Positions 32,866-45,536 of a stretch of 64,000 nt of DNA are shown in pieces. The notes under the pieces are model-generated. The model was not told the origin of the DNA. It did no database searches and worked only from the letters and a program-made list of their open reading frames with translations. A program made the position numbers and the translations under genes. Each line of letters begins with the position of its first letter. The stretch's first letter is position 1. The stretch is from Fimbriimonadaceae bacterium (lineage in GTDB: Bacteria; Armatimonadota; Fimbriimonadia; Fimbriimonadales; Fimbriimonadaceae): assembly GCA_019638675.1 (NCBI GenBank), contig JAHBTE010000001.1, positions 1,210,605 to 1,274,604 of the forward strand. The letters are read 5' to 3'.

Positions 32866-34773
32866 TTATGCTCTTTCAATATAAATATTGCCGGACGAAT
32901 CTGTGCCGCCATCTGGGCGAACATTGGCTCGGAGTTCAACCAAGTCTCCCGCTTTGATGTTCAATCCATCAAAGCGGTATTGATTCGCCCGGTGTGAACC
33001 GCCGGTTGTTCCATCGTGAACATCCTGCTTTTGCATAACACCATTCACCCAAATGTCGGCGCGTTGAATATCAAGCCGATGCGCTCCGCCAGTGTAAACA
33101 AAAGTAACTCGGTAATTTCCTGATTGAGTTATTGACTTGGAGATGTTCCAAGTGACCTCGCTCCAATCTGGCTTCAGCATTGACGGTGTCCAAGAGCCGC
33201 TTGGCGTGTCGGAGGCTTTAGGCGCTCGATAATTCACACCCAGTGCTTCAAGCCGTTTGAGATGGGGTGTCAGGCGAACAAGAAACTCGTCGTAGTTACG
33301 CTTGGATTGGGGAGTCCAGCCAACTTCAGCAACCGCGCAGGCCCGTGGGTAAGCCATATATTCGCGGTGCGAATAACTCTTCATATATTCAGTCCAAATG
33401 TTTCCCTGAACCCCGAGAATGTGCTTTTCGTTTCCTGGATTGATGCCAGCGACTTGAGGATTGAACGAGTAGACAGTTCTAAGTGGAACGAACCCTCCAA
33501 TAGCGTCTGGCTCTTCGGCTGGTTGGCCTTGGTAGTAGTCCAAGTACATATTGCCAGTAGGAGTCATCACAACGTCTTGGCCCAGATTCGCCGCAGTTAG
33601 CCCACCGCTTGTTCCGCGCCAACTCATCACCGCTGATCGTTTTGGCAGACCACCCTCTAGAATCTCGTCCCAGCCAATCAAACGTCGACTGTGCTTGTGA
33701 AGATGGTTTTCCATCTGCTGGATAAACCACGATTGGAGTTCGTGTTCATCTTTGAGCCCTCGCTCTTTCATTCGTTCCTGTTCAGCGGGATCGTTCTTCC
33801 ATTGAGTTTTGGGGCACTCGTCGCCCCCGATGTGGATGAATTGACCGGGGAAGATATCCATCACTTCCGTAAGAACATCACGGCAGAACTGGACGGTTTT
33901 CTCAGAAGTGTTTAGAACACGATCCGACACTCCCCAGCGTTGGAAAACTTCAGCGGGTTTGCCATCGCCGAGTTCTGGGTACGCGGCAATCGCCGCTACC
34001 ATGTGGCCGGGCATATCAATTTCTGGAACGATAGTTACATGACGCTCGGCGGCGAACGCCACAATTTCTCGCAGGTCGTCTTGAGTATAAAAGCCACCGT
34101 GTGGAATTCCGTCGTATTGAGGCGTATTGTGCCCAACTACCGTTTCTTTACGGATAGAACCAATCTCAGTGAGGCGAGAATATTTTTTGATTTCGATCCG
34201 CCACCCTTGGTCATCGGTAAGGTGGAAGTGAAACGTGTTGATTTTATGCACTGAAAGCGTATCAATAAACTTCATAACTTCAGCTTTCGTGCTGAAATGG
34301 CGAGCCACATCGAGCATGATTCCGCGCCACTTGAATCGAGGCTGATCTTCGATCACGACGCAAGGGACTTCCCACTTTACGGACTGTACGGTTTTTTGAA
34401 AGATTTCTGGTGGCAGTAATTGCCGGAGGGTTTGAGTGCCATAGAACAACCCGGTTTCAGTCGGAGCCGTGATGCTGATTGCCTTGGGAGTGACTTCTAG
34501 ACGGTAACCCTCGGTACCCAAGTGATCCAAATTAGAAGCGAGAGTCAGCGAAATTTGATTATCCTGAGCGGAAGAATCACTTAATTTGAATCCAGTTGAA
34601 GGCCTAAAATATCTGCCAATCCACTTTGCTGATTCTGGGTCGCTTCCGTGCCAGACAGTAGTTCGCTCATTGATTTCAAAACTCCCTGAACCGTGAGTTA
34701 TCTGAGCGGGAAGTGGAATCAAACTAACGGATGTTTGCGGGAGTATGGCAAGAGAAGCAAGTAATGAAATCAT
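32866..34773 (-). CDS. Beta-N-acetylhexosaminidase, GH20 family
   Basis: A 635-residue secreted glycosidase that removes terminal GlcNAc or GalNAc. It has a signal peptide (LLASLAILPQTSVS), a GH20b-type N-terminal domain (about 15-140) and the catalytic barrel (about 145-500). The barrel shows KWRGIMLDVARHF, INTFHFHLTDDQGWRIEI and HIGGDECPK with catalytic pair Asp318-Glu319. A C-terminal beta-sandwich of about 110 residues (525-635) with VTFVYTGGAHRLDIQ may bind carbohydrate. It uses substrate-assisted catalysis through the N-acetyl group. The small membrane gene follows in the same operon, and an ABC importer is divergent, so together they suggest uptake of chitin- or peptidoglycan-derived sugars. 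Confidence 0.95.
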   Translation of the reverse strand: MISLLASLAILPQTSVSLIPLPAQITHGSGSFEINERTTVWHGSDPESAKWIGRYFRPSTGFKLSDSSAQDNQISLTLASNLDHLGTEGYRLEVTPKAISITAPTETGLFYGTQTLRQLLPPEIFQKTVQSVKWEVPCVVIEDQPRFKWRGIMLDVARHFSTKAEVMKFIDTLSVHKINTFHFHLTDDQGWRIEIKKYSRLTEIGSIRKETVVGHNTPQYDGIPHGGFYTQDDLREIVAFAAERHVTIVPEIDMPGHMVAAIAAYPELGDGKPAEVFQRWGVSDRVLNTSEKTVQFCRDVLTEVMDIFPGQFIHIGGDECPKTQWKNDPAEQERMKERGLKDEHELQSWFIQQMENHLHKHSRRLIGWDEILEGGLPKRSAVMSWRGTSGGLTAANLGQDVVMTPTGNMYLDYYQGQPAEEPDAIGGFVPLRTVYSFNPQVAGINPGNEKHILGVQGNIWTEYMKSYSHREYMAYPRACAVAEVGWTPQSKRNYDEFLVRLTPHLKRLEALGVNYRAPKASDTPSGSWTPSMLKPDWSEVTWNISKSITQSGNYRVTFVYTGGAHRLDIQRADIWVNGVMQKQDVHDGTTGGSHRANQYRFDGLNIKAGDLVELRANVRPDGGTDSSGNIYIERA

Positions 34774-34855: not shown

Positions 34856-36199
34856 ATGAGATTCATCTCAAAAATGATCTTAGTGGGTGGCATCGCGGCA
34901 ATCGCGATGTTTGCCGTTACTGGATGCACTCAACCACAAGGAGGGGCTAATCCCGGTGGTTCCCCCGACGCGCCGAAAAGCGTTGAAGTCATGATTTTCA
35001 AAGGCGGATACGGCAGTGATTTCTTTGAAAAGGCCGCCGAAGAGTTCACCGCAAACACTGGCATAAAAGTGACGGTCATCGCCGATCCTCGGATTGACCA
35101 GCAAGCACTCAAACAGTTCCAAGTCGGCGATCCGCCTGACCTTGCTTATCCGGGTTGGCGCTTTGATGCGTGGAAGGCAGTTCAAGAAGGCGAAGTCATG
35201 GATTTAACCGCCGCAATGAAAGAGCCTGTGTTCGGAGGTGGTTCGGGCACATGGGGAGATTCATTTGAACCAGGTATTTTGAAGCTCGGCGAGAACGGCG
35301 GCAAACAAATGCTCATGCCGTATTTCTACTCTCTCTGGGGATGGTGGTACGACCCAGATTTATTCGCTGAAAAAGGTTGGAAAGTTCCAAAAACTTACCA
35401 AGAGCTTTTGTTGCTCTGCCAGCAAATCAAAGGTTCGGGCATGGCTCCCATCACTTATCAAGGCCAATATCCGGATTACATGACGTCGGGAATGCTGCAG
35501 CCCTGGATCATCAGCGCCGGTGGAATGGATGCGATGAAGGCTTGCCAAAACCTTGAGCCAGGTGCTTGGAAGTCTCCTGCCGTTATCAAATCTGCCTCAA
35601 TGATTCGAGAGCTACGGGATATGGGTTACTTCCAAATGGGGGCAACCGCCTTGAGCCACACAGAAGCTCAAGCAGAATTTATCAATCGCCGAGCCGCCCT
35701 GATTCCATGCGGAACATGGCTCTACTCAGAGATGAAAGATTCCTTGCCAGAAGGTCGGCGTATGCAGTTTATGCTTCCGCCAGTTTTGAGCGACGGCAAA
35801 GGCGATCCGACTGCCATTACGGTCAAGATTGAGCCGTGGCTGGTCGCAGAAAAGTCAACAAGCAAGAAAGAGGCCGTCGAATTCTTTAAGTACCTGACTT
35901 CGTTAGAAAAAGCAAAGCAGTTCGTAGTCGAAAAAGGCACTCTCATGTCTATCAAGGGTAGCGACGAAGTCGATCTGCCGGAATATCTAAAGGGTGCGGC
36001 GGATAGCATGAAGGCGAGCAAGTCGCCTTGGTCAGCCCAGTGGAAGGAGTGGTATCCGACTTTCTATAAAGCAGTCGGAGATGCGCTTACTGAACTCGTG
36101 AATGGAGAGCTTTCTCCGCAAGAATTCGCAAATAAATGCGAAGCCGAGGCAGAAAAACTCCGCAAGAACGACGATATCGCTAAACACAAAGTGGAGTAG
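34856..36199 (+). CDS. ABC transporter sugar-binding lipoprotein
   Basis: A 447-residue extracytoplasmic binding protein. The lipoprotein signal ends at VTGC (Cys24), followed by a Pro/Gly-rich linker. The rest fits family-1 sugar-binding proteins: EEFTANTGIKVTVIADPR, YPGWRFDAWKAVQEGEV and MPYFYSLWGWWYDPDLFAEKGWKVPKTY. The pattern resembles the N-acetylglucosamine/chitobiose-binding NgcE group, and the neighbouring hexosaminidase supports that (inference). A GGGAG precedes the ATG. It starts an operon with two permeases 6 nt and 4-base-overlap downstream. No ATPase is encoded nearby. Divergent from the hexosaminidase across about 80 nt. Confidence 0.9.
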   Translation: MRFISKMILVGGIAAIAMFAVTGCTQPQGGANPGGSPDAPKSVEVMIFKGGYGSDFFEKAAEEFTANTGIKVTVIADPRIDQQALKQFQVGDPPDLAYPGWRFDAWKAVQEGEVMDLTAAMKEPVFGGGSGTWGDSFEPGILKLGENGGKQMLMPYFYSLWGWWYDPDLFAEKGWKVPKTYQELLLLCQQIKGSGMAPITYQGQYPDYMTSGMLQPWIISAGGMDAMKACQNLEPGAWKSPAVIKSASMIRELRDMGYFQMGATALSHTEAQAEFINRRAALIPCGTWLYSEMKDSLPEGRRMQFMLPPVLSDGKGDPTAITVKIEPWLVAEKSTSKKEAVEFFKYLTSLEKAKQFVVEKGTLMSIKGSDEVDLPEYLKGAADSMKASKSPWSAQWKEWYPTFYKAVGDALTELVNGELSPQEFANKCEAEAEKLRKNDDIAKHKVE

Positions 36200-36205
36200 C
36201 GGAGA

Positions 36206-37090
36206 TTGGCCAGCAAGAACTTGAAACGCAACGGGTTCTTGCTGGCCTGTTTGCTTCCCGGGCTAATTCTGTATTGCTCCCTGGTTCTTGTTCCGTTTGC
36301 TCGGACGATTGAACTCAGTGGCTATCGGTTTTCAGGCGTCTCAACAAACCGCAAGTTTGTGGGTTTTGATAACTTTGGCAAGTTGTGGGAATCGGAACCG
36401 TTCTGGTGGGCGATCCGCAACGGCGTGACCATGCTGTTGGTGGTCGGGCCAGTGATTTTGGGCTTGAGCATGCTCCTAGCCCACGCGACGCAAGGCACTT
36501 CCCGATTATCGCGCCTCATGCGGACGGTTTATTTGTTTCCGAACCTGATTTCACTGGTCGCCGCCGCACTGATTTGGCGGAATATCTACAATCCTAGTGT
36601 CGGGTTGCTCAGAGGTATCGGCTTGACGGGGCCACAAAACGGCTGGTTGGGTGATTTGAACACAGCGTTTCCGGCGTTTAACGTTGCTTTTGCCTGGGTG
36701 ACGCTTGGCTTTTACACCATGCTGTTTAGCGCCGGGTTAGCCGGAATCCCCGCAGAAGTTCATGAAGCTTCTGAACTCGAAGGAGCACATGGGCTTCGAA
36801 AATACGTGTTGATCACGCGTCCACTTTTGTGGTCGGTTCGCAGGGTAGCGAGTGTTCACATCACGATTGCCGCACTTGGAGTTTTTGCACTGGTCAATGT
36901 CATGACCGACGGTGAACCGAGCGGTCGAACACAATCCTTACTCAATTATCTGTACCGGATGATGACCATTGAAGGTGAATTCGGAAAAGCCGCCGCGCTT
37001 GGGGTTGTGATGATGGTGATCACATCTGTGACCAGCCTCATGCTCTGGATGTTGTTCCGGCGCGATCCAACGGCTAGGAGATCAGCATGA
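36206..37090 (+). CDS. Sugar ABC permease, MalF/UgpA type
   Basis: A 294-residue inner-membrane permease with six helices. The N-terminus is LLACLLPGLILYCSLVLVPFARTIELSGYRF, typical of sugar permease A proteins. The EAA loop is near residues 188-205 but reads EASELEGAHGLRKY rather than the usual EAA-IDGA form. The TTG start at 36206 is placed by the lack of any upstream in-frame ATG; its GGAG is only one base before it, so a TTG five codons later is also possible. The stop overlaps the next permease (ATGA). Together with the binding lipoprotein it should import sugar, energised by an ATPase encoded elsewhere. Confidence 0.88.
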   Translation: MASKNLKRNGFLLACLLPGLILYCSLVLVPFARTIELSGYRFSGVSTNRKFVGFDNFGKLWESEPFWWAIRNGVTMLLVVGPVILGLSMLLAHATQGTSRLSRLMRTVYLFPNLISLVAAALIWRNIYNPSVGLLRGIGLTGPQNGWLGDLNTAFPAFNVAFAWVTLGFYTMLFSAGLAGIPAEVHEASELEGAHGLRKYVLITRPLLWSVRRVASVHITIAALGVFALVNVMTDGEPSGRTQSLLNYLYRMMTIEGEFGKAAALGVVMMVITSVTSLMLWMLFRRDPTARRSA

Positions 37091-37896
37091 AGTCGCTGAT
37101 TAGCAAGCTCGGAATGGCTTTTTTCGCGATGGTCGTTGTTTTGCCGGTTGTTTGGGTGTTCGCCAGTTCGCTCAAAACAAATCAGCAGATTATTGATTCG
37201 CCATTTACCAACCCAATTCCGCCGCAGTTTGAAAACTTTGGCAAAGCTTGGGTCGCCCAAGATTTAGGAAGCGGCTTCATTCTCAGCTTAGTGGTGACTC
37301 TGCTGACCTTAGTTTTCTTGATTCCGATTGGATCAATGATGGCGTATGCGTTGACACGCTACAAATTTAAGGGGTCAGGATTGATTCTTGCCGTGGTTAC
37401 GCTCGGAATGTTGTTCCCGAACTTGCTCGCCGCCGTACCCTTGTTTATCATGATGGCTAAGGTCGGGTGGGATGACACGATTTTCGGGCTTGTGCTTGCC
37501 TACATTGCTTATTCAATTCCGTTCACAGTATTTGTTCTCTCTGGATTCTTTTCTGCATTGCCAGAAGAACTTGCCGAGGCGGCCACCATTGACGGAGCAG
37601 GGCATTGGGGACTGTTCTTAAAAGTAATGATGCCATTGGCTAAACCCGGAATTTGGGTCGTAGTGATCTTTAACTCCATCGGCTTATGGAACGAATACAA
37701 CCTGGCCAAGATTCTGCTTTTGCGGCACAAAACCCTGCCCGTCGGATTGGCTGATTTGATTTCACAGCAACAGTATGCAGGGGAGTGGGGATCGCTGTTT
37801 GCCGGGGCGGTTTTAGTGATGCTCCCGATTCTGACGATGTATATGATTTTGAAAGACAAGGTGCAGCAGGCGATGCTCGCTGGAGCGATCAAGTAA
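37087..37896 (+). CDS. Sugar ABC permease, MalG/UgpE type
   Basis: A 269-residue permease with six helices. VLPVVWVFASSLKTNQQI starts the MalG-type core. The EAA loop lies near residue 160 (EAATIDGAGHWGLF) and closely fits the consensus. Length is normal for the family; unlike the MalG-like gene at 7718, it has no insertion. It overlaps the other permease by 4 bases. The aminotransferase that follows starts 27 bases later and may belong to the same transcript or have its own promoter. Confidence 0.9.
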   Translation: MKSLISKLGMAFFAMVVVLPVVWVFASSLKTNQQIIDSPFTNPIPPQFENFGKAWVAQDLGSGFILSLVVTLLTLVFLIPIGSMMAYALTRYKFKGSGLILAVVTLGMLFPNLLAAVPLFIMMAKVGWDDTIFGLVLAYIAYSIPFTVFVLSGFFSALPEELAEAATIDGAGHWGLFLKVMMPLAKPGIWVVVIFNSIGLWNEYNLAKILLLRHKTLPVGLADLISQQQYAGEWGSLFAGAVLVMLPILTMYMILKDKVQQAMLAGAIK

Positions 37897-37923: not shown

Positions 37924-39162
37924 ATGTCGCCCACCATTTCTGAAATCCGCGCTCAGTTCCCAAGCATTAAAAATGACTTCGCATTTCTCGAGAACGCGGG
38001 TGGGAGCCAGGTTCCAAAGTGTGTGATCGAGGCGATTCATCAATTTTATTTAGAAGATTACGTTCAGATCGGCGGCTCTTACCCCCATTCCCAACGAGCG
38101 AGCAATGTGGTTGAGAATTGCCGACTATTCATGAACCGCATTTTCAATGGCGAGGATTTAGGCTATGTGGCAATCGGTCAGAGCGCAACCGCATTAATGA
38201 ATGTTCTCGGCAACGCTTTTCGCGGAGTTCTCAAACCTGGTGATGAAGTTGTGATTTCAGTTGCCAACCATGAAAGCCACATCGGGCCTTGGGAGCGATT
38301 GCAGGAAATCGGAGTGGTGGTCAAATGGTGGGGTGTTGATCCAATGACCGGGCTGAGCTCACTGGATGATTTGCGAGAAATCGTGAATCCGCGCACCAAA
38401 CTCATATGTTTTTCGCAAACGTGCAATATCGTTGGCGATAACTTGGATGTCAAAGCGGTGGCAGAGATTGGTCACTCGGTCGGCGCAACGGTAGTTGCCG
38501 ATGTGGTTGCGGCGGCGAGTCATGTCGTTCCCGATGTCGCGTCTTGGGGAGTGGACTTCTGCTTTTTCAGTTGCTACAAGGTTTATGGGCCGCACATGGC
38601 GGCACTATTCGGTCGCAAAGAAAAATGGGCTGAACTCACCGGGCCGAACCACAAGCAACTTCCGGTCAAAGGGGCGAATAAATTTGAACTCGGTTGCCTT
38701 CCTTACGAACTGCTAGCCGGATTCTTAGCTCTGGGGCAGTACTTTTCGTTCTTAGCAGGTGAGCAGTCAACTGTAACTGATGTGGTTAGCCGGAATACGA
38801 TTGAACGAGCATACGGTGCAATGAGAGAGCAAGAACATCTCATCAACCAAGCGATGCTTGGCTGGTTGAATTCTCGCACCGATATCAGGATTCTTGGCAT
38901 CACAAACCCCGCTGGCGATCGACACCCGACTTTCAGTTTTGTTCACGATCGTATTCCAAGTGATGTGATAGTAAAGGCGGTTTCGGATCAAGAGTTTGGC
39001 ATCAAAGGCGGCAACTTCTATGCATTTAGAGCCTGTGAAGCAGTTGGAATCGACCCCGACACGGGGGTCGTGCGGGTGAGTGCGGTTCATTACAATTCAC
39101 TGGAAGAAATACAAAGAGTTTGCGCATCCCTAGAAAATGTACTAGCTGGGGTTACTTTATAA
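37924..39162 (+). CDS. Class V aminotransferase, desulfurase-like; possible cysteine-sulfinate desulfinase
   Basis: A 412-residue PLP enzyme of the cysteine-desulfurase fold. His116 in NHESH stacks on PLP, Asp193 in VADVVAAASH pairs with its nitrogen, and Lys219 in SCYKVYGPHMAA is the Schiff-base lysine. The usual active-site-Cys loop is missing: the position that reads RSGHHCAQP in SufS is GGNFYAFRACEAVG here. Without the persulfide Cys it is unlikely to be a true desulfurase. It would suit a substrate whose sulfur leaves directly, such as cysteine sulfinate (alanine plus sulfite). The next gene encodes cysteine dioxygenase, which makes that compound, and the third is a YeiH exporter. Function is inferred from this context. 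Confidence 0.8.
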   Translation: MSPTISEIRAQFPSIKNDFAFLENAGGSQVPKCVIEAIHQFYLEDYVQIGGSYPHSQRASNVVENCRLFMNRIFNGEDLGYVAIGQSATALMNVLGNAFRGVLKPGDEVVISVANHESHIGPWERLQEIGVVVKWWGVDPMTGLSSLDDLREIVNPRTKLICFSQTCNIVGDNLDVKAVAEIGHSVGATVVADVVAAASHVVPDVASWGVDFCFFSCYKVYGPHMAALFGRKEKWAELTGPNHKQLPVKGANKFELGCLPYELLAGFLALGQYFSFLAGEQSTVTDVVSRNTIERAYGAMREQEHLINQAMLGWLNSRTDIRILGITNPAGDRHPTFSFVHDRIPSDVIVKAVSDQEFGIKGGNFYAFRACEAVGIDPDTGVVRVSAVHYNSLEEIQRVCASLENVLAGVTL

Positions 39163-39195
39163 AATTCAGTAGACTGTGAAAAGCGAGGAAAGTTG

Positions 39196-39768
39196 ATGAC
39201 CCCAGCCCAAAACGCCAATCTGAAAAATTTTATCCATCATATGGATCGAGCCGTCGCGATTGCGGATGTGGAAGAGCGGTGCGCCGCAGTTAAACATATT
39301 TTAGAAACTGCTTTTCAGCATCAGTTCGATATTTTGGATGAGGAGCATATGCAACCGGCGAAGGACTGTTACGCTCGTAGGTTAGTGCACAAAGATCCGG
39401 GTGGGGCTTATTCGGTGGTTGCAATGGTGTGGGATGTGGGTCAAGGAACCGCCCTGCACGATCATGCAGGCGAATGGTGTGTGGAATGCGTTTATCGAGG
39501 CTTGATACGGGTGACATCATTTGATCTGATCGGCGATGCGGATTCCGAGGTTGTTCAATTCAAAGCTGAGGATTCAATACTCGCTGGAGTTGGGGAAGCA
39601 GGTGCATTGATTCCTCCGTTTGAATATCATATGATCGAAAACGCATTGCGTGATCAACCAACGGTAACGGTTCATGTTTATGGGCATGAACTTACCCACT
39701 GCAACGTGTTTGTTCCGGTTGATGGTGGATATAGAAAAGAGGTTCGGAGCCTCTGCTACACCAGTTGA
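39196..39768 (+). CDS. Cysteine dioxygenase
   Basis: A 190-residue cupin that oxidises cysteine to cysteine sulfinate with O2. The iron ligands of the mammalian enzyme are all present: His88 and His90 in LHDHAGEWC and His145 in FEYHMIEN. Cys95 in that motif and Tyr162 in VHVYG correspond to the crosslinked Cys93-Tyr157 pair. Tyr59 and Arg61 (YARRL) fit the substrate-binding residues, and Thr158-His160-Tyr162 the Ser-His-Tyr triad. The ATG at 39196 is preferred over TTG 39193 because GAGG is 7 nt upstream. It overlaps the exporter gene by 4 bases (TTGA) and lies about 33 nt after the aminotransferase. Confidence 0.9.
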   Translation: MTPAQNANLKNFIHHMDRAVAIADVEERCAAVKHILETAFQHQFDILDEEHMQPAKDCYARRLVHKDPGGAYSVVAMVWDVGQGTALHDHAGEWCVECVYRGLIRVTSFDLIGDADSEVVQFKAEDSILAGVGEAGALIPPFEYHMIENALRDQPTVTVHVYGHELTHCNVFVPVDGGYRKEVRSLCYTS

Positions 39769-40787
39769 AAGCGGTAGAACAAGCAAAATCTACGGCTCCA
39801 GGTTTAGCATTGGTGCTGGTCTTGGCACTGTTTGCCAACTGGCTGAGTGAAGTCCCCGTTGTCAAAGATCAGTTAAGGTTTTCGGCACTTTTATTAGTTA
39901 TTTTGCTTGGAATTCTGATCGCATCTGCCTGGACGCTCCCGAAAATATTCGAGCCAGGCTTGAAAATCGCGCAGAAGCCGATTCTCCGTTGGGGAGTAGC
40001 GGGGCTTGGATTTCGTCTCACATTACAAGAACTCGCAGGGATCGGTGCCCCAGCTCTTTTGGTTGTAGTGTTGGCGGTAGCTGGTTCCTTTCTTTTTTGC
40101 GTGTGGCTGGGCAAGATCATTGGCATAGATAAGAAACTTGGATTGCTTTTAGCGACTGGCGGGAGCATCTGCGGGGCCAGCGCGATTGTCGCCGCGGACA
40201 CAGTTGTTGAAGCGGAAGGTCAAGATGCTGCGGTGAGCATGGGAATCATCACGCTTTGGGGCACCGTGGGAATTTTTATATTTCCGGTTTTGGCAAAAGC
40301 GATGGGTTGGGGTGACTTTGCGTACGGTTTATTTTGTGGTGCCACCCTGCACGAAACCGCTCAAGTCGTTGCCGCGGCGAGCGGAATTTCACCCGCCGCA
40401 GTTGGAGTTGCCACCGTCGTCAAGTTAGTCAGAATCTGCACCCTGGCTCCGATGGTGTTTGGAATAGGCTGGTGGCTACGTCGAACTTCGGATAGCGAAG
40501 CAACCGCTAAGGTTTCGCTTGTGCCTTGGTTCCTTGTGATGTTTTGCGTATTTTCAGCGATGGTTTCATTTATCCAAGTGGAATCATTCCAGACTTTGGT
40601 AAAAGATCAAATCAATCCGGCGGTGAAGCTGCTCCTTGCGGTTGGAATGGCGGGGGTTGGACTGCAAACCAATGTTCGCGATTTGTGGAAGGCAGGTTGG
40701 AAGTCAGTTGGATTAGGCTTGGCTCAATGGGTAGCGCTAATTTTAATAACCCTCACATTAATGTCAGTTTTTAATCTATGGAAATGA
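39765..40787 (+). CDS. YeiH-family (UPF0324) putative sulfite/sulfate exporter
   Basis: A 340-residue membrane protein with about ten helices. It carries GGSICGASAIVAAD and FCGATLHETAQVVAAAS, the hallmark motifs of the YeiH/TauZ family. In other bacteria, members are proposed to export sulfite or sulfate produced by sulfonate breakdown; a direct assay is not widely available. Translation probably starts at TTG 39765, overlapping the stop of cysteine dioxygenase (TTGA), so the two are strongly coupled. Export of the sulfite made upstream fits this arrangement. Confidence 0.85.
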   Translation: MKAVEQAKSTAPGLALVLVLALFANWLSEVPVVKDQLRFSALLLVILLGILIASAWTLPKIFEPGLKIAQKPILRWGVAGLGFRLTLQELAGIGAPALLVVVLAVAGSFLFCVWLGKIIGIDKKLGLLLATGGSICGASAIVAADTVVEAEGQDAAVSMGIITLWGTVGIFIFPVLAKAMGWGDFAYGLFCGATLHETAQVVAAASGISPAAVGVATVVKLVRICTLAPMVFGIGWWLRRTSDSEATAKVSLVPWFLVMFCVFSAMVSFIQVESFQTLVKDQINPAVKLLLAVGMAGVGLQTNVRDLWKAGWKSVGLGLAQWVALILITLTLMSVFNLWK

Positions 40788-40851
40788 TTTCTTAGAAAAT
40801 TTGATCATTGGCGTATTAGTTGTCGTCCAATTTCATTAAGGTTTGGGAGTG

Positions 40852-42153
40852 ATGAGCGAAAAGGTTAATGTCGGCGGTAACGCCATCCAAAGTGTAGAAA
40901 CCGCCCAGCGGATGTTAGAGATGATCCACGATTTGGGCGAATGCCAAGATGCCCGTCAAATCCTTGTCGCCGCACTCCGTCACTATCGCTTTTTATTTGG
41001 GGAATACAAGGGCATGATTCTTTTGCTCGATGACCCTAAATCGGGCAACTGGAGATCGCTTGGCTTAGAAAGCCCCTATGGTCAGAGTTGGGGCGGTATT
41101 TCTCACAACATGCTTCCCGAAAATTCAAGTACCGATCAAATCGGCTCTGATTTGGGCAAGGATGCAACGCCTTGGATCACGAACGATCCGCCGTTCCGGC
41201 GAGCGTTTGTGGAATCAAGTGAAGGGTTCGTCGCCCACGACGGCGTTCTTGCTGTGCGGCTCGCGACTTTCACTGGATTAAACGCCAATATTTTTTGGGC
41301 GGCAAGTTGGCGGCGTCCAGGCGGGAGCCATGCTTGGAGCATCCTTGCTTTTGATAACGCGCATGCTCCAAATGAAGAAAGGTTTGGGCTTTACTGCACT
41401 GCGGTTGAAACCACCAGCCGCATGGCGTATTATCCATCGCTCTTACAATCTGTTGCCCGTACAGAACGAATAAACCAAAGCATCCGCCGAAACATTGTTC
41501 ACGATCTTAAAACACCGATCACTGTCATCAAGGGCTACGCAGAAACTCTGCGTGAACCAGAAATCGCCGCTGACCCTGAGATCGTAGAGGAACTATTTAA
41601 CGGCATTGTAGAAAGTTGTGACCGTTTGCTTGCGGACATCAAAGACATTATCGAGCCAATTGAAGGTGAGTGGAAACCAACTCTTGAAGAGTTTGATTTG
41701 GCGATGATGCTCCACAAAGTGGTTCTCGCCGAACGGCATACAGAGAGATCAAAGCATCACAACTTGGTGCTTCAGGGGGCGGATGAGCCAGTAATGGTTT
41801 GCGGGGATCGCCGGAAATTGATGAGGGTGGTCGAGAACCTTCTCAGTAACGCCGTGAAATATTCGCCTGGTCTCAACAAAAACGTTTGGGTGAAGCTCAC
41901 CCACTACGCAAACCGAGTGATGATTGAAGTTCAAGACGAAGGATTGGGCCTCTCACAAGATCAGGTGAAACGCGTTTTGGACGATTGCCAGCGAGTAGTG
42001 GATGAATCTCTTGGAATTGAAGGCAGTGGCTTCGGACTGAACTCTTGCCAACTGGTTCTCAAAGCTCATGGCGGAAAGTTAGAAGTTGATTCAGAGCAAG
42101 GTGTCGGTTCTGTTTTCCGTGCGATTTTGCAAAAAACTCTTGACGTAATCTGA
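40852..42153 (+). CDS. Orphan sensor histidine kinase
   Basis: A 433-residue soluble kinase. The first 190 residues, with no membrane segment, look like a GAF-type sensory region of unknown ligand. The dimerisation/phosphoacceptor helix has the H-box NIVHDLKTPITVIKGY (about 215). The ATPase domain shows the N-box VVENLLSNAVKYS, G1 QDEGLGLS and G2 GSGFGLNSC. It is intact, but no response regulator gene is next to it, so its partner is unknown. The ATG at 40852 is used, with a GGGAG two bases before; TTG 40843 and GTG 40849 remain possible. It lies between the cysteine-oxidation operon and pyrG, and may be monocistronic. Confidence 0.9.
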   Translation: MSEKVNVGGNAIQSVETAQRMLEMIHDLGECQDARQILVAALRHYRFLFGEYKGMILLLDDPKSGNWRSLGLESPYGQSWGGISHNMLPENSSTDQIGSDLGKDATPWITNDPPFRRAFVESSEGFVAHDGVLAVRLATFTGLNANIFWAASWRRPGGSHAWSILAFDNAHAPNEERFGLYCTAVETTSRMAYYPSLLQSVARTERINQSIRRNIVHDLKTPITVIKGYAETLREPEIAADPEIVEELFNGIVESCDRLLADIKDIIEPIEGEWKPTLEEFDLAMMLHKVVLAERHTERSKHHNLVLQGADEPVMVCGDRRKLMRVVENLLSNAVKYSPGLNKNVWVKLTHYANRVMIEVQDEGLGLSQDQVKRVLDDCQRVVDESLGIEGSGFGLNSCQLVLKAHGGKLEVDSEQGVGSVFRAILQKTLDVI

Positions 42154-43991: not shown

Positions 43992-45536
43992 ATGAGTACG
44001 TCTTCTCCATCCCCACAGCCGGCTGATTTTGATAAGTTTCGCCGGAAACTCATTCTCAAATCCAAGCCAGTGAGCAAGGAAGAGAGAGCCGAGTGGTTCA
44101 CTCAATTCACAGAGATTATTGAGAAGGCATTTCCAGCGCAAGAGTGCCGCATCAACCGTCCTGGGGTGGCGCATCGGTTGTTTGCAGCAGAAATCGCGAT
44201 TCCAAGGCTTAAGCCAGAAAACCTGATGGGGTTTGCGAAGGAGTTTGAAAAGCTGTTCATGGAAGCTATGCCCGTAACCTTGGAGGCTTGCTACACGCAG
44301 GTTTATCAAGATCGCATGGATATTATTTGGGAAGCCGCGATTGATCTTGGCGATTGCTACGTTACCTGCGCGGTCAAGCTCCGCAACGCAGAATTTAGCT
44401 ACAACGAATTTAACGAAGATGACCGAGGTGGTTACAGCGACCGACCGCGCGGCGGTGGTTACGGAGATCGGGGACGAGGTAGAGATGACCGGGGTGACCG
44501 AGGCGGCTACAGAAATGATGACCGTCCGGTTTACAGACGCGACACAAGTGAGGCATCAGCAGAAGGCGATGCAAGCGATTCAACAGAAGTACGTGGAGAA
44601 GACGGAAGCGAAGGAACGCGAGCCCCAAGACGCTTCGACCACGATGGAACAGATTTAGGCGAGCATAAACGTCAACAGCGGTACCAGCGAGATCGCGGTG
44701 ACCGAGGTGGCTACGGCGGCGGTCGAGATAATCGAGGCGGTGGAAGAGACCGTGGCGGCTATGGAGGCAATCGAGATAACCGAAGTGGCGGCTACGGAAA
44801 CGACCGGGGCGGATATCGTGGCGGAGGCGACCGTGATCGCGGCGGCTATGGCGGAGATCGCGACAATCGAGGCGGCGGTTTTGACAGGGATCGCGGCGGC
44901 TACCGCGGTGATAGAGATAATCGTGGCGGTGGATTTGACCGAGATCGAGGAGGCTATCGAGGTGGTGGTGACCGAGATCGTGGCGGATACGGAAATCGTG
45001 ACAACCGGGGTGGTGGTTATGGCGGCAACCGGGACAATCGTGACAATCGAGGCGGCGGTTTCGATAGGGATCGTGGCGGCTACCGAGGCGATAGAGATAA
45101 CCGCGGTGGTGGATTTGACCGAGACCGCGGAGGCTATCGTGGAGGCGGCGACCGAGATCGAGGTGGATACGGAAATCGTGATAATCGAGGAGGCGACCGA
45201 GGTGGCTATCGGGGAAGAGATGATCGAGGCGGCGGATACCGCGACGACCGGGGCGGAAATCGTCCAGATGGCGGCTACCGAGACAACCGAAGCAATGATG
45301 GCCCACCACGCGATAAAGGTCGCTGGCGAGACCGTCCGGATGGAGGCTCAGACCGACCTAACCGATCGTTCCCTTCTGGTAAGTCGGGAGGTTCATCTGG
45401 CGGATTTCGAGGGTCCAAGAACAGCGGAGGGAAGAAGTTTTCAGGTGGTTCTGGCCGACCAAATAAAGGCCCTGGCTCATTTGGCCCAAAAGGGAAGCGC
45501 TCCGGCCCTCCAAAAGGCAAACGGTCAGGTGAATAA
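43992..45536 (+). CDS. RGG/RG-repeat protein with N-terminal domain
   Basis: A 514-residue protein. The first 135 residues are a folded domain, with [32 protein letters not shown] and an alternating beta-type part near [12 protein letters not shown] do not recognise it. From about residue 138 onward the chain is low-complexity and disordered, dominated by repeats such as [20 protein letters not shown] and GYGGNRDNR. The tail is KGKRSGPP-type and basic. These RGG/RG and Tyr-rich motifs bind RNA and drive condensation in eukaryotic proteins, so a nucleic-acid role is plausible. A 60-residue block is tandemly duplicated. The RNA-binding gene at 46500 has a similar tail. Its last 179 bases also encode the isomerase on the other strand. 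Confidence 0.82.
44862..45194 (+). repeat. Internal tandem duplication, 180-bp unit, in RGG gene
   Basis: A 180-bp unit starting at 44862 (GACAATCGAGGCGGCGGTTT) is repeated at 45042; the second copy matches for about 153 bp before diverging. At protein level 51 residues are repeated without change, while DNA differences are mostly third-base and synonymous. This suggests selection on the protein sequence. Confidence 0.85.

Follow-up and report, generated by a model that had tools for sequence, protein, structure and literature searches.

The locus analyzed here raises the question of why a cysteine dioxygenase (CDO) should be encoded between a PLP enzyme with the fold of a cysteine desulfurase, labeled AT5 in the following, and a membrane protein of the YeiH family. 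The window, the whole stretch of 64,000 nucleotides that was analyzed, comes from a genome (G000) of the Fimbriimonadaceae (Armatimonadota), a group that has been little studied; the genome is 98% complete. The original prediction saw in the three genes a coherent pathway from cysteine to cysteine sulfinate, then to alanine plus sulfite, and on to export. Taken as a whole, we lean slightly towards such a cysteine-disposal operon, acting in the order CDO, AT5, YeiH: the oxidation and export steps stood up, given the residues, the gene order, the co-occurrence, and the absence of both sulfite reductase and sulfite oxidase, whereas cleavage of the sulfinate is argued from gene position and from the chemistry of relatives.

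Layout of the Locus and the Cysteine Dioxygenase

All three genes are complete and share one strand (table 1). As predicted, CDO lies between AT5 and YeiH, the YeiH start overlapping the CDO stop by 4 bases (TTGA, 39765-39768); ATG is the more likely of the two CDO starts. We infer that AT5, CDO, and YeiH are co-transcribed. No + strand terminator-like site was seen in the gaps between them, which is weak evidence, and promoter-like matches were at chance level (7 seen vs 7.4 expected). The sugar ABC transporter genes (34856-37896) probably form one transcription unit with AT5, because the gaps are short and the strand does not change; the substrate-binding protein reaches 276 bits against TIGR03851, under the cut-off of 400. 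The histidine kinase is probably outside the pathway, since members of the genus that lack CDO and YeiH still carry it next to this locus.

Table 1. Features of the window around the cysteine dioxygenase gene
Feature	Coordinates	Strand	Profile match or remark
Sugar ABC transporter substrate-binding protein, NgcE-like (N-acetylglucosamine/diacetylchitobiose type)	34856..36199	+	TIGR03851
ABC transporter permease A	36206..37090	+	Profile matches
ABC transporter permease B	37087..37896	+	Profile matches; 27 bp upstream of AT5
AT5, PLP-dependent class V aminotransferase-fold enzyme, 412 aa	37924..39162	+	Pfam Aminotran_5, 156 bits
Cysteine dioxygenase (CDO), Arg-type	39193 (TTG) or 39196 (ATG)..39768	+	Pfam CDO_I, 38 bits (cut-off 23)
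YeiH-family membrane protein, putative sulfite exporter, TTG start	39765..40787	+	PF03601 (Cons_hypoth698)
Histidine kinase	40843..42153	+	Begins ~55 bp 3' of YeiH

Three further features of the window should be noted. A strong hairpin with a 16-bp stem (36208-36247; z -6, with -34 kcal/mol for the 65 nt around it) lies where the gene of the substrate-binding protein meets that of permease A and may serve to tune expression of the ABC operon. A divergent ORF on the - strand (~32866-34773) was recognized by eye as family 20 beta-hexosaminidase-like, and its place beside an N-acetylglucosamine-type ABC transporter suggests chitin or amino-sugar use. The ORF at 43992-45536 encodes long Arg-Gly-Gly/Asp-rich repeats (DRGGYRGG type), with DNA repeat periods of 54 and 180 bp.

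The CDO had been described as complete, with all iron ligands and the Cys-Tyr crosslink pair, and this was borne out: in an alignment of 27 homologues the iron ligands H88, H90, and H145 are invariant, as are D89, Y59, R61, and H160 and the crosslink pair C95 (H88+7) and Y162 (H145+17). Iron ligands, Cys-Tyr pair, and substrate Arg are thus those of mammalian and bacterial CDOs, although overall identity to these is low and the protein falls under every NCBIfam model. In profile alignments C95 aligns with the crosslinking Cys of the mammalian-type CDO chain, and R61 with Arg60 of mammalian CDO and with a Gln in 3-mercaptopropionate dioxygenase chains. These two residues make cysteine the likely substrate, and we rejected a 3-mercaptopropionate dioxygenase on account of the Arg, not Gln, at the substrate position. 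In several other Fimbriimonadaceae genomes CDO adjoins cystathionine beta-synthase and a cystathionine gamma-lyase/synthase, which also ties it to cysteine. Judged from its sequence, CDO very probably oxidizes cysteine to cysteine sulfinate.

AT5 and Its Relatives without the Catalytic Cysteine

AT5 keeps the PLP lysine K219 together with H116, D193, H200, N168, and R384, and the position of the catalytic Cys of SufS is occupied by Tyr366, in agreement with the claim of a desulfurase-fold enzyme without the active-site Cys. A Tyr is found there in 32/32 Fimbriimonadaceae sequences; the Cys is thus absent from the group as a whole, and its absence here is no special loss. The E. coli enzymes CsdA and SufS have the fold (VIA Z 39-42) and the PLP lysine in common with AT5, but they keep the catalytic Cys and are mainly cysteine desulfurases with a sulfur acceptor, and AT5 scores far under the cut-offs of both models (SufS 145.7 bits, cut-off 475.1; CsdA 126.9 bits, cut-off 607). 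Against TIGR01976 (cysteine desulfurase-like, VC1184) it reaches 318.6 bits, below the curated cut-off of 352.35, whereas its relatives L035 and L107 lie above it (364 and 372 bits); we therefore call AT5 TIGR01976-related only. A separate SufS is encoded elsewhere in the genome, which rules out AT5 as the housekeeping desulfurase; on this ground, and because the Cys is missing, we rejected true cysteine desulfurase activity for it. The predicted model of AT5 has the SufS fold (mean pLDDT 79.5), and the best 50 matches of a fold search lie within ~3 Z units, a spread that cannot tell a sulfinase from a desulfurase; FGM3 was not among the fold-search matches listed.

The best solved profile matches of AT5 are FGM3 (375 bits), UstD (246), and desulfurases (226 and below). 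FGM3 (PDB 9x4u), of the fusaoctaxin pathway of Fusarium, converts 4-hydroxyarginine to L-alanine and an aldehyde; it is Cys-less, has conserved equivalents of Arg369, His389, His224, and Tyr218, and releases L-alanine after cleavage of a beta-carbon bond (PMC10967133). It differs in being fungal, in cutting a C-C bond, and in having Phe in place of Tyr366, and is ~30% identical to AT5. UstD (PDB 7mkv), of the ustiloxin B pathway, is likewise Cys-less, and its donor aspartate is the carboxylate analogue of cysteine sulfinate, the sulfur analogue. From aspartate it generates an alanine enamine, which yields alanine when protonated (PMC11976203, PMC13397446); however, UstD adds the enamine to an aldehyde, is fungal, and is further from AT5 than FGM3. 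Arg369 and His389 are common to the AT5 group, FGM3, UstD, and cousins from rhizobia and are not found in the SufS-type protein. Relatives that form an alanine enamine without a Cys make AT5 a credible desulfinase.

Outside the family, cousins 35-40% identical to AT5 occur on plasmids of alphaproteobacteria (rhizobial, Roseobacter-type) and Deinococcus. An amino-acid ABC transporter accompanies them, and three of the four loci examined also hold a dihydropyrimidinase. In L139, L140, and L142, amino-acid ABC transporter, TIGR01976-type PLP enzyme, and dihydropyrimidinase form a conserved operon, the substrate of which may be a gamma-hydroxy amino acid bearing a ureido or guanidino group. The pairing of PLP enzyme and dihydropyrimidinase recalls FGM3 and the amidohydrolase FGM2 and suggests that part of the group cleaves other amino acids.

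These cousins, together with FGM3 as nearest solved relative, argue for another reading, to which we give a minority chance: AT5 would act, like FGM3, as a C-C lyase that releases alanine from a gamma-hydroxy amino acid, and CDO and YeiH would be a working pair, with an ordinary aspartate aminotransferase deaminating the sulfinate. The product of that deamination, 3-sulfinopyruvate, loses sulfite spontaneously. However, no hydroxylase was recognized beside AT5 in the window and no hydantoinase-like ORF in any AT5 neighborhood examined, and the residue at the SufS Cys position differs throughout: Tyr in AT5, Phe in FGM3, His in the rhizobial cousins, and Met in UstD.

Gene Neighborhoods of AT5 and CDO

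Of the 29 Fimbriimonadaceae genomes that have both genes, 12, representing six genera, carry AT5 directly upstream of CDO and in the same orientation, an adjacency that a C-C lyase leaves unexplained. By genus, AT5 is present in 20/20 with CDO and in 4/12 without (p 5e-5, relatedness uncorrected). It also occurs in 18/37 Fimbriimonadaceae genomes without CDO, two of them of the same genus as the window (G001 and G002), and there the neighbors scanned showed no consistent partner. None of the active-site residues separates CDO-linked from unlinked copies. With the cousins in a different operon, AT5 is thus not necessarily devoted to sulfinate cleavage, and the original prediction went too far in this respect.

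On the AT5 tree, six changes are required to account for the CDO-linked label, and well supported branches force four of these; the AT5-CDO pair has therefore formed or broken up several times. ABC transporter, AT5, and histidine kinase stand together with CDO and YeiH missing in G001, and the latter two are also missing in G048 and G040, where the flanking genes match those of sister genomes; conversely, in G062 and G067 the corresponding place holds CDO and YeiH, and AT5 was not found. The genes are thus gained or lost independently of one another, and the existence of AT5 without CDO, and of CDO-YeiH without AT5, is a further point in favor of the C-C lyase. The arrangement in G001 would also fit the absence of any single pathway, in which case AT5 would be a partner of the sugar ABC transporter encoded before it and CDO-YeiH would have landed behind AT5 by chance; but five other genera have AT5 and CDO as neighbors without that transporter, and we regard this explanation as very improbable. 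The gene order of the locus is conserved in relatives and is therefore not a matter of chance.

No AT5-CDO adjacency was seen outside the Fimbriimonadaceae, among the CDO loci gathered and in the genomes behind the out-of-phylum loci. Among the 15 genomes behind these loci, a close AT5 copy (E below 1e-90) was found in only two, one of which is a mislabeled member of the Fimbriimonadaceae. The record L053, titled 'Methanoregulaceae archaeon isolate SJ84', has the same AT5 coordinates as G018, and its title seems wrong. The search for the gene order in other genomes thus gave a divided answer: the order is kept in relatives and CDO-YeiH extends to three phyla, whereas AT5-CDO was found in one family only. 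As a separate observation, a D-Ala-D-Ala dipeptidase-like gene (Peptidase_M15) lies just upstream of AT5 in several genera (L035:3625-4335, L036:3839-4618, L074:4007-4735).

YeiH, Probable Sulfite Export, and the Proposed Pathway

The YeiH protein matches PF03601 with 255.7 bits (gathering score 24.5) and stays below the cut-off of TIGR00698 (175.7 bits vs 232.6). Of 34 loci gathered by CDO similarity, 20 have CDO and YeiH as immediate neighbors, in Armatimonadota, Eisenbacteria, and Planctomycetota; YeiH is usually downstream, and the 4-base stop/start overlap is frequent. Close YeiH homologues (E below 1e-40) were found in 18/32 CDO-bearing vs 1/37 other Fimbriimonadaceae genomes, so that 18 of the 19 genomes with such a homologue also carry CDO (Fisher p 4e-7 by genome; genomes are not independent and relatedness is uncorrected). 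By genus the figures are 10/20 with CDO and 0/12 without (p 0.004, relatedness uncorrected). In two genomes (G014 and G021) both genes are present and not adjacent. The YeiH of Armatimonadetes bacterium Uphvl-Ar1 (L033:6570-7591) is split into two overlapping frames, through either a frameshift or a sequencing error.

A profile search of the window's own genome detected neither a sulfite oxidase (PF00174) nor a sulfite reductase (PF01077) domain; the same search found sulfite reductase in 11 and sulfite oxidase in 9 of 14 control genomes. Among 42 Fimbriimonadaceae genomes sulfite reductase is nearly absent (one match), and the sulfite oxidase domain occurs in seven. With both enzymes missing, export would be a sensible exit for sulfite, which is toxic. 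Sulfite induces yeiH in Salmonella, and cells that have lost the gene are sulfite sensitive, the evidence being a resistance phenotype (PMC12880088). This YeiH belongs to the same family, PF03601, but is YeiE-regulated and not CDO-linked there (PMC12880088).

Adjacency to CDO, co-occurrence, the missing sulfite enzymes, and the Salmonella phenotype together make it probable, by analogy, that YeiH exports sulfite. A sulfur anion other than sulfite as the cargo of YeiH, for instance sulfate or cysteine sulfinate itself, with AT5 still cleaving cysteine sulfinate, is improbable in our judgment. Such a cargo would accord with the family name, 'putative sulfate export transporter', with the score below the TIGR00698 cut-off, and with the literature, which gave no transport assay of a close YeiH homologue; against it stands the response of Salmonella yeiH to sulfite, and CDO-YeiH pairs without a nearby AT5 are compatible with any sulfite-yielding route.

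Returning to the cysteine-disposal operon, we infer the substrate of AT5 and the cargo of YeiH as follows. CDO would convert L-cysteine and O2 to L-cysteine sulfinate. AT5, by way of Lys219, would form an aldimine with the sulfinate, SO2 would be lost from the beta carbon to leave an alanine enamine, and this would be protonated and released as L-alanine. An active-site Cys would be dispensable for AT5 in this scheme, since sulfur departs as SO2/sulfite rather than as a persulfide. YeiH would move the sulfite out of a cell without a detectable enzyme to reduce or oxidize it. Desulfination of cysteine sulfinate by a PLP enzyme has long been described (Soda 1964, as cited in PMC3276061), and CsdA is known for this activity (Mihara 1997, as cited in PMC3276061). 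Cleavage of cysteine sulfinate to alanine and sulfite is the best hypothesis for AT5, one that gene position and the chemistry of its relatives modestly favor. By analogy with UstD, AT5 might instead use the sulfinate as an activated donor, SO2 leaving and the enamine joining an aldehyde to give a gamma-hydroxy amino acid, for which we see only a slim chance.

Coupling of cysteine oxidation to sulfite export is familiar from dermatophytes, with CDO and the sulfite efflux pump Ssu1 (Grumbt 2013, as cited in PMC7181669), and from the CDO-TauE pair of Streptomyces; the exporters there belong to other families, and neither system is reported to have a linked gene for a desulfurase-fold protein. 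Our literature search found no paper on TIGR01976 or on a CDO-desulfinase-exporter operon. The new element is thus the linked Cys-less desulfurase-fold enzyme, the logic of CDO and sulfite efflux being already known from the dermatophytes.

If the proposed pathway is correct, it would constitute a bacterial route of cysteine disposal without transamination, and a Cys-less relative of the cysteine desulfurases would gain a first natural role in sulfinate cleavage. The gene context would indicate sulfite as the cargo of YeiH, a family that is widespread but poorly characterized. It would also correct the annotation of the 'cysteine desulfurase-like' proteins of this group, which are without the residue that a desulfurase requires.
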